Part shown: positions 3,996-26,474 of the stretch, one piece after another
Position numbering within the stretch: the stretch's first letter is position 1
Layout of the letters: every line of letters begins with the position of its first letter
Virus record (IMG/VR): IMGVR_UViG_3300034819_000012
Span: 1-43,235 of that record
Length of the DNA stretch: 43,235 nt
Origin: a virus
Direction: 5' to 3' (one strand)
Program-made: the position numbers and the translations under genes
The notes under the pieces: generated by a model
Databases searched by the model: none
Told to the model about the DNA's origin: nothing
The model's input: the letters and a program-made list of their open reading frames with translations, nothing else

Positions 3996-4484
3996 TCATG
4001 CAGCGACGACCGATGCGCCGAGCGAGATCGGCAGATACCTCAGGTACCAGTCGACCACGCCGTCCGCGCCGGTGGCGGTCACCTGCTCGATGACCCCGGT
4101 GTTGACGTACACGCCGACCGGTGCGCCCAGGAAGTCCGAGGACACCTTGCTGATCGGCCACGCCTGGACGGCGCCGATGCCCGTGACCATGCTTCCGGTC
4201 GGCGCGCCCGGCACCGTCAGCAGGTTGCCCGCCGGCGTGTCGGTGGTGCCGATGTCGGTGGCCGCGCACAGGTCCGACGACGTGCCGGTGGTGGGGTTGG
4301 CTTGCAGCTTGACCGTGTTGGCGACCGTGATCGCCGTGGTGACCACGCCCACGATCGAGGTCACCAGCACCAGGCCGGTCACCGTGAACAGGCTCTTGGT
4401 CTCGACCGCGAGCGTGTAGGACTTTTTGACGTACACGCCGAGCGCGCTCTTGGTGTACGCGTCCGCTTCGTTGACGACGGTCAT
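3996..4484 (-). CDS. Putative capsid decoration / structural protein
   Basis: A 162-aa protein, MTVVNEADAYTKSALGVYV onward. A hydrophobic beta/helix segment (LFTVTGLVLVTSIVGVVTTA) is followed by a beta-rich half (DLCAATDIGTTDTPAGNLLT) and a C-terminal VDWYLRYLPISLGA. The start ATG overlaps the previous stop by one base (TGATG). Two genes downstream of the major capsid protein is the usual place for decoration proteins, and the size fits, but I recognise no named family. The coding region ends next to the 17-bp hairpin. Confidence 0.6.
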   Translation of the reverse strand: MTVVNEADAYTKSALGVYVKKSYTLAVETKSLFTVTGLVLVTSIVGVVTTAITVANTVKLQANPTTGTSSDLCAATDIGTTDTPAGNLLTVPGAPTGSMVTGIGAVQAWPISKVSSDFLGAPVGVYVNTGVIEQVTATGADGVVDWYLRYLPISLGASVVAA

Positions 4485-5032
4485 CAGGCGTTCGCCGCCC
4501 CGGGCCGAAGCAGGTTGAACAGGCGGTCCGGGCGCCGCGGGTACCGCAGCGAGTGGACGATGTAGATCGCCGCGGCCAACTGCGCGTTGGCGACGGTGGC
4601 CGACGCGTCCAGCGAGATGTGCGTGTAGCCCTCGGTCAGCAAGCTGTCCTGGACGGGGATGACGACGATCTGCTGGCTCTCGGCCGACGTGCCGGCACCG
4701 CCGGCGTCCGGGATGGTTGCGGCCAGCGTCTGCGAGACGATCGACCACGATTCGTCATTGTCGAGCGCTGTCTCGCTTTTGAGATAGTAGTGGTCGATGC
4801 CGGTCAGGTTCCCCGACGTGCCGCCCGTGTAGGCCGTGTGCTGCTTCAGCGTGTACGTGAAATCGTCGGCTGCGGTGCCCGCGGCCTTGATGATCACGAT
4901 GCTGACACCGCGGCCTGGCATGACGGCAAGCCGCTTGCCGGTCGCTCCGTCGGCGGTATTGAGGTCCACCGGCGCCCAGCAGAGTCCGATGTCGTAGATC
5001 CTGCCGAGCCCTTCGGCGGTGATGCTGCCCAT
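4484..5032 (-). CDS. Putative head protein downstream of capsid gene
   Basis: A 182-aa protein with a good ribosome-binding site (GGGGAGAG) before the ATG at 5032. A longer open frame upstream runs into the capsid gene and is not used. The sequence looks beta-rich (VSIVIIKAAGTAADDFTYTL, HISLDASATVANAQLAAAIY) and ends in a basic tail (YPRRPDRLF). Its place immediately after the major capsid protein suggests a decoration or head-stabilising protein. No named family is recognised. Confidence 0.6.
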   Translation of the reverse strand: MGSITAEGLGRIYDIGLCWAPVDLNTADGATGKRLAVMPGRGVSIVIIKAAGTAADDFTYTLKQHTAYTGGTSGNLTGIDHYYLKSETALDNDESWSIVSQTLAATIPDAGGAGTSAESQQIVVIPVQDSLLTEGYTHISLDASATVANAQLAAAIYIVHSLRYPRRPDRLFNLLRPGAANA

Positions 5033-24030: not shown

Positions 24031-24329
24031 GGCGGTGTTGGACGTGCAACACCGAACATGATCTTGACGCGGCGTGCCCGTCGTCCATGACCGTGCGGTC
24101 GGTGCGGTCCGCGGGGAGTCCCGGCAACACGATCGCGGACCACACCTCTCCGGACCTATTCGACGATGCCGAGGACACCGCGCAGTTCGGGCCGGTATTC
24201 ACGTCCCGATTCGACGGCGAGTGCGACGCCTGCGACGGCGCCATCTACGCCGGCCAGCCGATCCGCGCCTGGTCCGGTGTCGGCTACATCCATGCAGAAC
24301 GTGAATGCGAGAGGCTGGCAAGTCAGTGA
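24027..24329 (+). CDS. 100-aa zinc-binding protein with DLFDDAED motif
   Basis: The ATG overlaps the helicase stop. The N-terminus has CWTCNTEHDLDAAC and the C-terminal half ECDACDGAIYAGQ...H..C, giving two probable zinc sites. Between them is DLFDDAED, which also starts the next protein. The C-terminal fold resembles the small zinc modules that follow helicases or nucleases in phages. Probably a DNA-associated accessory protein. Confidence 0.65.
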   Translation: MRRCWTCNTEHDLDAACPSSMTVRSVRSAGSPGNTIADHTSPDLFDDAEDTAQFGPVFTSRFDGECDACDGAIYAGQPIRAWSGVGYIHAERECERLASQ

Positions 24330-25225
24330 CCGACGATCTTTTCGATGATGCCGAGGACTACCCGTACGGGCTGGATCAGTCGATCCACCGGTATCGGTTC
24401 CCGTCCCCGCCCGGCGAGCCGGCACCGTACCGCGGTAGCTGGCGCCGGACGACCAACTTGGTCAAGGCGTTCAGCGATCAGTACCGACTGCAGCAATGGC
24501 TTGAGCGGATGACGCTGTTGGGCTTGCTGGCCAATGAGGGTCTGATCTTCGATGAGATGGCTGCTTCCGGGCTGGAGTATCTCCCGTCCGACGTACAAGG
24601 GAAGGTGCTGCACGAGAAGGCGGAGATGGCCCGATCAGCGGTTGGCGCGGACAAAGGCTCCCGCAAGGGCACGGCCCGGCATGACGTGCTCGAGCACTAC
24701 ATCTTTGCGGGCGAGGTGATCGGCCACCGGCGCATGCGCCTACAGATGCACGAGCTGATCGACCTCATGGACCAGCGGGACTTCGAATTCATTCCCGGCA
24801 CGGCGGAGGACTACATCTGGCATCCCGCGGCCGGTGGCGTGGTGGGCCGGCGTGACGTGCGCTTCCTGTGCCGGCGCACCGGGGCCATCGGCACGGCCGA
24901 CCTGAAGACGCAGCAAAAGTTCTGGACGTACCAGGAACATGCCGGCCAGCAGTACATCTATGACACAGCGCCATGGGTGTGGGACGGCCCGCTGAATGAC
25001 AACGGCATGTGGGTGCCGCAGGCTCGCGGTACGTACGTGGGCCGGGACGGCGGTGTCTGCCCGGGCAAGCCCGCGGCGCTGCTAATCCACATGCCGTCTG
25101 CCGGCGGGCCGGTGGAGCTGCACGAGCTCGATCTGGAGTACGGCGCCCGGGTCGTCGAGGAGGCGGAGCGGATCACGACGCTGCGTACCGAGGGGACGCG
25201 GGTCGGCGGAATCTGCCCGGACTGA
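24326..25225 (+). CDS. PD-(D/E)XK exonuclease (Cas4/RecB-like)
   Basis: A 299-aa protein starting at the GTG overlapping the previous stop (GTGA); the in-frame ATG at 24305 is inside that gene. Conserved features: GTARHDVLEHY (residues 115-125), GVVGRRDVRF with D177, TADLKT with D192-L-K194, and the QQY motif at 208-210. This is the RecB/Cas4-type nuclease order. There is no four-cysteine Fe-S cluster as in Cas4 (I see only two cysteines). With the adjacent SF2 helicase and zinc protein it forms a likely end-processing unit for recombination. Confidence 0.8.
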   Translation: MTDDLFDDAEDYPYGLDQSIHRYRFPSPPGEPAPYRGSWRRTTNLVKAFSDQYRLQQWLERMTLLGLLANEGLIFDEMAASGLEYLPSDVQGKVLHEKAEMARSAVGADKGSRKGTARHDVLEHYIFAGEVIGHRRMRLQMHELIDLMDQRDFEFIPGTAEDYIWHPAAGGVVGRRDVRFLCRRTGAIGTADLKTQQKFWTYQEHAGQQYIYDTAPWVWDGPLNDNGMWVPQARGTYVGRDGGVCPGKPAALLIHMPSAGGPVELHELDLEYGARVVEEAERITTLRTEGTRVGGICPD

Positions 25226-25229
25226 GGGG

Positions 25230-25257
25230 TTGACACCTCCCATGGGCGTGCTATAGT
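25230..25257 (+). promoter_or_regulatory. Consensus promoter of the noncoding RNA
   Basis: TTGACA (25230-25235), a 16-nt spacer ending GTGC, and TATAGT (25252-25257). It is the best -35 in the window. By the spacing of the other promoters the start should be A25264; here ATAGCACG follows instead of an ATG, so a non-translated RNA is made. Confidence 0.8.
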
Positions 25258-25499
25258 TGACTCATAGCACGAGGTAACCGGAAGCCAAAGGCCACGGCTT
25301 CCCGATCCCGATATACAAGTGAAAGGCCTCAGGCCAGCCGGGAGCGTTACCCGGCGGGATCACGAGACATAGGGTTTCCGGTGAACAACGTCTTTAAAGG
25401 TGGAAACCGGGACAACTGAATCGAGGACCCATGTCGGGGCTCCCCGCGGAGAAGGCGATCAAGTCGCGCCCGGGGCTCGATCCTGAGGAGTCCTCACCT

Positions 25500-25570
25500 T
25501 CCCCGCAAGGCCGGAACTGTCCGGGCGAGCGCACGCTTGGGATTGCCAGGTTCGAATCCTGGGCGGGGAG
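25500..25570 (+). other. tRNA-like element 1 (acceptor and T arm intact)
   Basis: A 7-bp acceptor (TCCCCGC 25500-25506 with GCGGGGA 25563-25569) and a textbook T arm (CCAGG-TTCGAAT-CCTGG, 25546-25562) with a 71-nt total. The D region folds only as CCGG-AACTGT-CCGG. The anticodon region gives a 6-bp hairpin (CGAGCG/CGCTTG) with no 7-nt loop, so it cannot decode normally. The acceptor 3' strand can alternatively pair with CTCCCCGC at 25440-25447. It is probably a tRNA-like domain of the large RNA; a decayed tRNA gene is the alternative. Confidence 0.55.
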
Positions 25571-25693
25571 CAATAGCAACCGCCGGCAGTGCACGGCCGT
25601 GATGTTCAGGTAGACCCGGATCGAGCGGTTGCGATCCGAACCCCGGCCCGCGGAGCCTCTCCGGGAACGCGGCGGACAGCAAGCGGAGAGGGG

Positions 25694-25764
25694 CGCGCTG
25701 GGCCGGTAGGTATCGGAGCAGGTTGGTTGACCTGCGAAAGCGGGTTCAATACCCGTCAGTGCAC
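25694..25764 (+). other. tRNA-like element 2 (8-nt anticodon loop)
   Basis: GCGCTG/CAGTGC acceptor (25695-25700/25757-25762), a D arm CCGG-TAGGTA-TCGG, an anticodon arm GCAGG-TTGGTTGA-CCTGC with an 8-nt loop, variable GAAA, and a T arm GCGGG-TTCAATA-CCCGT. The first acceptor pair is C-A and position 8 is G, both odd for a tRNA. A competing fold, CCTGC-GAAA-GCGGG (GNRA tetraloop, 25731-25744), exists, so the tRNA reading is uncertain. Confidence 0.4.
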
Positions 25765-26000
25765 GAAATACGGCGCAGAAGCCTAACCAGCCCAAAGCGT
25801 CGGGCAACAGACCGGCTCACCAGGTGGTGCCTGAGCAAACTAGCTCTTTGGTCGGAGCGAAGTGCGAGGGGCATGTACGGGGATCGTTACCCCGTCCGGT
25901 CGCGAGGGGCGGAGGTCTCCAGTGCTTGTGGCCTGTACTCCACGAGCGGCGCAGTAATCCGCCCCTCACCCCAACCGCACCGAACAGAAGAGAGCAGAAC

Positions 26001-26474
26001 GTGACCGAATCGACCGAAACCGTCGTTATCGAGGATGCGCAGTCAGAGTTCGTCCGGATCGAGGACATCGACAAGCGAGACGTCGTGGTCTTCCCGATCA
26101 AGATCACCAAAGAAAAGGGTGATGGTGACGAGTTCCAGGCACTCTGGGCCGACGTGATCATTCTGTCCGGCAAGGACACTGAGAAGATCGAGTCCGTTCC
26201 CATGGTCGTCCGCAAGATGATGCTGACCAGCTCCCCGCTGGTCCGCAACGGAGAGCGGATGATCGAAAAGGCCAACCGGGCGAATGCCGCGCACGCCGGC
26301 CCGTTCTCTGGCCGGATCAACTCCCGGCCCGGCAAGTTCGGCAAGAAGGCGTTCGGTGTCGAAGCGTGGGATGCGGACGCTCCGATCCGTGCGCTGGCCA
26401 ACGCCGAGGCCGGCAAGTACATCCACGAACGTAACAACGTCGTGGCGGACGCCGACAACGACTTCGACGAGTAA
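26001..26474 (+). CDS. Putative single-stranded DNA-binding-like protein
   Basis: A 157-aa protein starting at GTG 26001 with GAAGAGAG upstream. Upstream in-frame starts lie in the structured RNA. The N-terminal half is strand-rich (RDVVVFPIKITKEKG, FQALWADVIILSG), as in an OB-fold. The middle has an FSGRINSRPGKFGKKAFGVE segment. The end is strongly acidic (DADNDFDE), like the C-terminal tail of SSB proteins that recruits partners. I recognise similar OB-fold-like proteins in actinophage replication regions, but no specific family is assigned. It follows the noncoding RNA and ends with a strong terminator. Confidence 0.55.
   Translation: MTESTETVVIEDAQSEFVRIEDIDKRDVVVFPIKITKEKGDGDEFQALWADVIILSGKDTEKIESVPMVVRKMMLTSSPLVRNGERMIEKANRANAAHAGPFSGRINSRPGKFGKKAFGVEAWDADAPIRALANAEAGKYIHERNNVVADADNDFDE

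Follow-up and report, generated by a model that had tools for sequence, protein, structure and literature searches.

The ROOL RNA is a large structured RNA of phages and prophages that is often found near tRNA islands, contains kissing loops and has no known function, and GOLLD is a large phage RNA in whose variable linker tRNAs are sometimes located (PMC12286853). What these large phage RNAs do is an open question. Here, we describe an RNA that represents a class of its own, built on a readable principle. It is encoded at positions 25264 to 25970 of the IMG/VR virus record IMGVR_UViG_3300034819_000012, of which the whole stretch of 43,235 nucleotides was analyzed and is called the window below. 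An initial annotation had proposed a large structured phage RNA that has its own promoter and contains a pseudoknot and tRNA-like parts, and that might be a divergent member of GOLLD or ROOL or else a new class. The general description is supported, and the new class fits best. The RNA lies outside GOLLD and ROOL, and its modules recur with covariation in other viral contigs. We are highly confident, with respect to identity and structure, that this is a phage non-coding RNA of a new modular class. Sequence comparison shows non-decoding tRNA-like structures (TLS) strung together in alternation with separately folding linkers, the modules being swapped between phages. The TLS keep the top half of a tRNA (acceptor stem, T-arm and C74) but not the decoding end. 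The latter is either missing or replaced by an apparent tertiary-contact element, which is a kissing loop in one module (module X), whereas other TLS have GNRA-type tetraloops or other loops.

TLS were defined by a 7-bp acceptor stem and a 5-bp T-arm with a T-loop, blind to the middle, and the canonical anticodon arm was then scored. Such an arm was present in only 1 of 28 phage-array TLS but in 25 of 26 control tRNAs (Fisher p 6e-13), and the sole canonical TLS is a tRNA-Cys in contig L008 that lies outside the array proper. The controls came from the Streptomyces phage Gilson (L022; 6/7) and from a Mycobacterium intracellulare plasmid (L024; 19/19); in part of this scoring, the variable-loop limit was widened by two bases. 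A spurious call (L013, 6439-6599) was left out of the counts, and the background rate of the pattern was 0.015 per kb. The TLS tips carry tetraloops (UCAC, or the GNRA-type GAGA and GCGA after a linker designated module W), enlarged loops or inserts. Armless TLS have 27 to 40 nt between acceptor and T-arm, and therefore intron removal cannot restore decoding; other TLS have 60 to 110 nt. C74 stands after the discriminator in 28/29 TLS and G75 in 27/29, as read from the listed flanks, and C74 is also present in the control tRNA genes of Gilson. RF00005 matches were found among the TLS, the family with the UCAC tip resembles a tRNA-Arg gene, and one TLS matched RF01684 (mascRNA/MEN beta) with 21.6 bits, below the cut-off of 42.5.

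The window RNA itself conforms to this pattern. The tRNA-like parts that had been proposed are present, four in number, and the combination of a 5-bp anticodon stem, a 7-nt loop and U33 is absent from all of them; ARAGORN called no tRNA in the RNA. In TLS-A, a 4-bp mini hairpin alone takes the place of the D and anticodon arms. The anticodon arm of TLS-C is without a 7-nt loop, that of TLS-D (GCAGG/CCTGC) carries the 8-nt loop TTGGTTGA (25723-25730), and the TLS of module X has an anticodon-like arm (GCTC/GAGC) with the loop TTTGGTCG (25847-25854). The T-loop is TTCGAAT in TLS-C and TTCAATA in TLS-D, and TLS-A and the module X TLS share the variant ANCGTTA. This variant stands in for TTCRANN at 25343-25349 and 25883-25889 and also in L002, L005, L008 and L013; in it, the T54/A58-equivalent bases are swapped (A and T).

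Module X (~145 nt, 25761-25906) recurs in L002, L004, L005, L008 and L013. L008 is a 14-kb contig that was found through the module X block, and L013, a 56.5-kb contig, was left out of the module X alignment. Over the eight helices of the remaining five sequences, 94.3% of the cells are paired and 10 pairs are double-changed, with 0 of 500 shuffles as high, and sliding the partners by one to three columns lowered the pairing to 27 to 44%. Indeed, a module X model built without L013 finds L013 at 153.7 bits; the window scores 156 bits with the module X covariance model R1, of whose training set it is a member. When L013 was added, with a gap in the anticodon-like stem shifted by hand, 13 pairs were double-changed; hairpin 1, the D-arm and the anticodon-like arm all gained new compensatory changes. 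Module X folds as a cloverleaf preceded by a hairpin. The cloverleaf comprises a 6-bp acceptor and the D-, anticodon-like, variable and T-arms, and its acceptor occurs as GACCGG/CCGGTC, GATCGG/CCGATC and GACCGG/CCGGTT.

The anticodon-like loop of module X is complementary to the loop of the preceding hairpin (25783-25789), and a kissing loop is probable from this comparison. In L005, three positions are altered on both sides and the pairing is retained (GGUCA with UGACC). Six contiguous kissing pairs can form in L004 and L008 but only four or five in the window, L002 and L013. The pseudoknot of the initial annotation is supported as a kissing loop in the relatives, by compensatory change, but has only four contiguous pairs in the window. 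There, the TLS-D loop UUGGUUGA (25723-25730) can form six pairs with the hairpin-1 loop CTAACCA, compared to four for the loop of the module X TLS; therefore, the kissing partner may have switched to, or may compete with, the TLS-D loop.

The same modules recur in at least 11 other viral sequences belonging to at least two phage types, of ~43 kb and ~57 kb. Each module is represented by five to six homologous sequences, which all come from metagenomic viral contigs. In every array, the TLS are lined up with linkers of ~100 nt between them, and the arrays are ~500 to 1730 nt long. With the TLS masked, the linkers match across phages, mostly over 40 to 300 nt at 65 to 93% identity, with the order differing (e.g., L008 versus L015). 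A search with a pattern derived from the module W sequences of L007 and L008 yielded L015, L016, L018 and L019, which are contigs or fragments of the ~57-kb type. Arrays of this type are longer, and that of L015 is located between terminase and portal genes; therefore, the exonuclease neighborhood seen in the window is not essential. The fold of module W is kept in six contigs, and its two most divergent members are 13 compensated pairs apart, and some of these pairs belong to the TLS that comes next. In the ~57-kb arrays, the 3' terminal hairpin is 98.6% paired, with 8/14 pairs double-changed. Five phages carry nearly identical members of a TLS family whose arm is CCTGCC-UCAC-GGCAGG and whose acceptor stems covary (100% paired, five pairs double-changed). 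One member of this family (L018, 6659-6766) has a hairpin of ~36 nt inserted in the D-loop, with the other arms unchanged. Matches of the UCAC TLS on plasmids proved to be ordinary tRNA-Arg genes, which were reused as controls, and L014, found by a loose DNA pattern, was rejected as an AT-rich chance match without a model match. The control plasmid L024 (NZ_LT703506, 237256-240325) carries a row of 18 to 19 canonical tRNA genes where the PLSDB gene table, which lists no RNA genes, is blank. A Macro domain protein (PF01661) is encoded near the TLS arrays of L008 (8613-9218, minus strand) and L015 (5174-5752, minus strand). Since macro domains act on ADP-ribosylated products, nucleic acids included, a link to RNA modification is conceivable.

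A search with the exonuclease encoded upstream of the RNA gave five viral contigs of 42 to 44 kb (L002, L003, L004, L005 and L007; 54 to 79% identity), all of which have a gene-free stretch of ~500 to 900 nt after the exonuclease gene. The promoter is kept in L002 to L005 (TTGAC[AG], spacer of 18 to 19, TATAGT) and is weaker in the -35 element of L007 (TTGCGC-17-TATAGT). At the 3' end, a GAGGGGC.../...GCCCCTC hairpin directly precedes the next gene in 6/6 loci, including the window. What lies between promoter and hairpin is a mosaic across the six loci, with blocks partly common and partly replaced. In L003, the loop of a TLS at 4259-4353 contains an insertion of 29 nt, and at 4134-4212 the anticodon position of a TLS is taken by a second T-arm-like hairpin (GACGG-TTCGATT-CCGTC). 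The non-coding stretch of L007 contains, at 4340-4660, a small open reading frame (ORF) together with another promoter-like site (TTGCAG...TATACT) and another hairpin, which is similar to part of a module Y.

Several observations support the view that the stretch is an RNA gene with its own promoter (Table 1). The promoter has 11/12 consensus matches and a TG before the -10 element, whereas the runner-up in the whole window has 9. Protein coding was rejected: a Pfam search of the five ORFs of at least 60 amino acids within 25264-25970 gave no match, and the bias in G+C content of the three codon positions seen in the neighbors (0.69/0.45/0.83 in the upstream gene, 0.61/0.38/0.83 in the downstream gene) vanishes inside the stretch (0.59/0.69/0.63). 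Moreover, single-base insertions or deletions separate the module X relatives. The folding energy of the whole region had a z of -3.3 versus 20 shuffles, but when the segments were taken singly, most were unremarkable and only the 3' hairpin was exceptional (z -4.3); therefore, folding energy was not relied on. It is weak evidence alone, and the structural proof is covariation. In summary, the gene-free stretch, the rank of its promoter as the best of the window, and the 10-bp closing helix at the 3' end, all claimed by the initial annotation, were confirmed, the promoter also by its recurrence at the same place in relatives. Neither of the two outcomes that it had named as speaking against such an RNA, absence of covariation in homologues or conserved protein coding, was seen when both were examined.

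Table 1. Positions of the RNA, its parts and its flanks in the window
Feature	Position	Strand	Description
Exonuclease (phrog_466), upstream flank	24305-25225	+	Anchor for finding relatives
Sigma-70-type promoter	25230-25257	+	TTGACA-16-TGcTATAGT, directly after the exonuclease stop codon
Non-coding RNA, whole	25264-25970	+	~707 nt; 5' and 3' ends placed by promoter and terminal hairpin, respectively
5' hairpin	25280-25302	+	GGAAGCC/GGCTTCC; GAGGTAACCGGAA in front, resembling the module W start (GGTAACAGGAA) of other phages
TLS-A	25304-25361	+	7-bp acceptor GATCCCG/CGGGATC; 5-bp T-arm with loop AGCGTTA; ACG follows
Hairpin domain	25366-25435	+	GACAT-GGG/CCC-ATGTC; predicted from a computed fold alone
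TLS-C	25500-25570	+	Acceptor TCCCCGC/GCGGGGA; T-arm CCAGG-TTCGAAT-CCTGG; homologous to L002 4055-4126
Linker D	25573-25694	+	Large helices in the minimum free energy fold, no more stable than shuffles; without homologues
TLS-D	25695-25762	+	Acceptor GCGCTG/CAGTGC; T-arm loop TTCAATA; ACG follows
Module X hairpin 1	25771-25802	+	Loop CTAACCA (25783-25789)
Module X TLS	25810-25901	+	Acceptor GACCGG/CCGGTC; D-arm CACC/GGTG; variable arm; T-arm CGGGG-ATCGTTA-CCCCG
3' terminal hairpin	25904-25967	+	10-bp closing helix GAGGGGCGGA/TCCGCCCCTC (25904-25913 with 25958-25967); without U-run, possible terminator or 3' barrier
Downstream flanking gene	26001-26474	+	No Pfam or PHROG match

At curated cut-offs, no Rfam model matched the window RNA. 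A permissive cmscan (E<=10) gave only a sub-threshold match to the tRNA-Sec model in the TLS-D region (25693-25764, 24.2 bits) and a chance match to H19, but no group I intron, riboswitch, ribozyme or tmRNA. The models for GOLLD (RF02032) and ROOL (RF03087) found nothing in the contig of the window or in the 11 related contigs; since no control genome passed the cut-off in these two model searches, this negative leans on the permissive cmscan. The proposed membership in GOLLD or ROOL was, therefore, not borne out. The only blastn match of the whole region was the T-arm of an ordinary tRNA-Gln. Modules W and X had no match in 50,697 phage records, and in a prophage search of 84,980 species genomes neither the module X pattern nor an exonuclease alignment found anything. 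The closest isolate by exonuclease is Corynebacterium phage BFK20 (27.5%), in which the corresponding gap is only ~220 nt, and that of the ~57-kb type is phiAsp2 (portal 38%), which has no array. The nearest isolates and the high G+C content suggest that the host is probably an actinobacterium. No description of phage TLS or of anticodon-less tRNA arrays was found in open-licence papers.

The main recognition elements of RNase P and RNase Z are the acceptor/T-arm stack and the nucleotides around C74, i.e., the part of a tRNA that the arrays keep. The overall reading that we favor, although tentatively, is that of an RNase P/Z-cut chain of non-decoding TLS-linker units that occupies tRNA-handling or tRNA-attacking proteins. 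One promoter would give rise to a single structured non-coding precursor ending in the 3' hairpin; promoter, stretch and hairpin are evident from the comparison of phages. Host RNase P and RNase Z would then recognize the tRNA-like tops and release stable TLS-linker units, a step for and against which we see equal weight. TLS tips would dock on linkers, as partly evident in module X, and the stable non-decoding units would occupy tRNA-maturation enzymes, EF-Tu or tRNA-cleaving defense nucleases during infection. Phage tRNAs as a supplement or decoy against tRNA-cleaving defenses are an established idea (Septu; tRNA-Tyr in T6; PMC13096335). The array is unable to decode and, therefore, could serve only as a decoy and not as a supplement. 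Such an occupancy role is possible but on the unlikely side. More doubtful is the specific version in which RNase P-processed, anticodon-less tRNA mimics, each docked on a structured partner RNA, would shield against tRNA-recognizing host proteins such as tRNA-cleaving defense nucleases, the modules being exchanged like anti-defense cassettes.

Several points weigh against this proposal of a processed, protein-occupying chain. The -1 base at the 5' ends of the TLS is not conserved, and it is doubtful whether RNase P would recognize a TLS as strongly reduced as TLS-A. The covariation comes from the five to six sequences per module, and the kissing in the window itself amounts to only four contiguous pairs. 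Transcription, processing and binding are all predictions from sequence, and the contacts that TLS tips make with linkers might point to an intact folded RNA instead.

The last point leads to the main rival, an intact architectural RNA like GOLLD and ROOL that is uncut, uses the TLS as structural elbows, is held by kissing loops and tetraloop contacts and possibly forms a multimer. It is consistent with the phage location, size and complexity of the RNA, with the kissing-loop covariation in module X, with the GNRA-type tips on several TLS following module W and with the terminal hairpins at the 3' ends; GOLLD and ROOL, both of them phage RNAs near tRNA islands, assemble through kissing loops (PMC12286853). 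However, phages differ freely in length (~500-1730 nt) and module order, as would be unexpected for a single fixed architecture, and the TLS tops retain tRNA processing signals (C74). We regard this rival as possible but not likely. A cis-regulatory role as a long 5' leader of the downstream replication genes is improbable. The gene at 26001 is not separated from the RNA by a promoter, and read-through is likely because the terminal hairpin lacks a U-run; but the downstream gene shows no conservation across the set, a pattern search with its protein (26001-26474) found no viral relative, and a leader that is possible for the ~43-kb type leaves unexplained the ~57-kb arrays, which lie in another context (terminase/portal).

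Two further explanations start from the tRNA ancestry of the TLS, and both are very unlikely. One is a cluster of ordinary phage tRNA genes that have lost their anticodons and are drifting. The ancestry is clear from the RF00005 matches and the likeness of the UCAC family to a tRNA-Arg gene, but the stems of acceptor and T-arm are unbroken and show covariation, five phages have almost the same aberrant UCAC arm, linkers are conserved, and 27/28 TLS are aberrant at the anticodon end and not at random places. The other is a set of working but unusual tRNAs, either frameshift suppressors with altered loops or intron-bearing tRNAs, as might be read from the 8-nt loop of TLS-D, the loop insertion at L003 4259-4353 and the 60 to 110 nt between acceptor and T-arm in some TLS; against this, many TLS have a normal or shorter middle (27-40 nt), tetraloops or no anticodon arm at all. 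A strongly diverged GOLLD or ROOL RNA, suggested by size, phage home and tRNA neighborhood, can practically be dismissed, since neither model matches in the 12 records or in the permissive cmscan and the modular alternation of TLS and linkers is a different plan.

The usual explanation for phage tRNA arrays is codon supply or the replacement of tRNAs cut by host defenses. Arrays incapable of decoding separate these ideas from a protein-occupancy role, and the building principle, tRNA tops with re-purposed tips and swappable linkers, means that parts can be deleted or exchanged singly. Moreover, "undetermined" tRNA calls in actinophage genomes may represent a different kind of RNA.

Compared to the known systems, the RNA resembles ROOL (RF03087) as a large structured phage RNA; a kissing loop is supported in module X, although it may or may not correspond to that of ROOL. 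It differs in the absence of any sequence or model match and in being a variable chain of TLS with swappable linkers, whereas ROOL has one fixed fold. With GOLLD (RF02032) it shares the phage home and the large size, and a ~707-nt non-coding stretch with four tRNA-like parts agrees with a large phage RNA near or containing tRNAs; however, there is no match, the conserved GOLLD 3' domain was not found, and the units in the window are tRNA-like but non-decoding. The stable RNAs C and D of the T4 tRNA operon, non-tRNA species of unknown function that are made together with the phage tRNAs, are not known to be chains of TLS modules. The tRNA gene arrays of Gilson and of the M. intracellulare plasmid are likewise rows of acceptor/D/T-arm structures with C74 after the discriminator, but their anticodon arms are canonical with one exception, and the linkers here are conserved structured domains. 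Among tRNA-like structures that serve as processing signals, a tRNA top half with a dispensable anticodon is also found in tmRNA and in the 3' TLS of plant viruses. The same is true for mascRNA/MEN beta RNA (RF01684), which, however, occurs in other organisms, whereas here several TLS per transcript alternate with conserved linkers in bacterial viruses.
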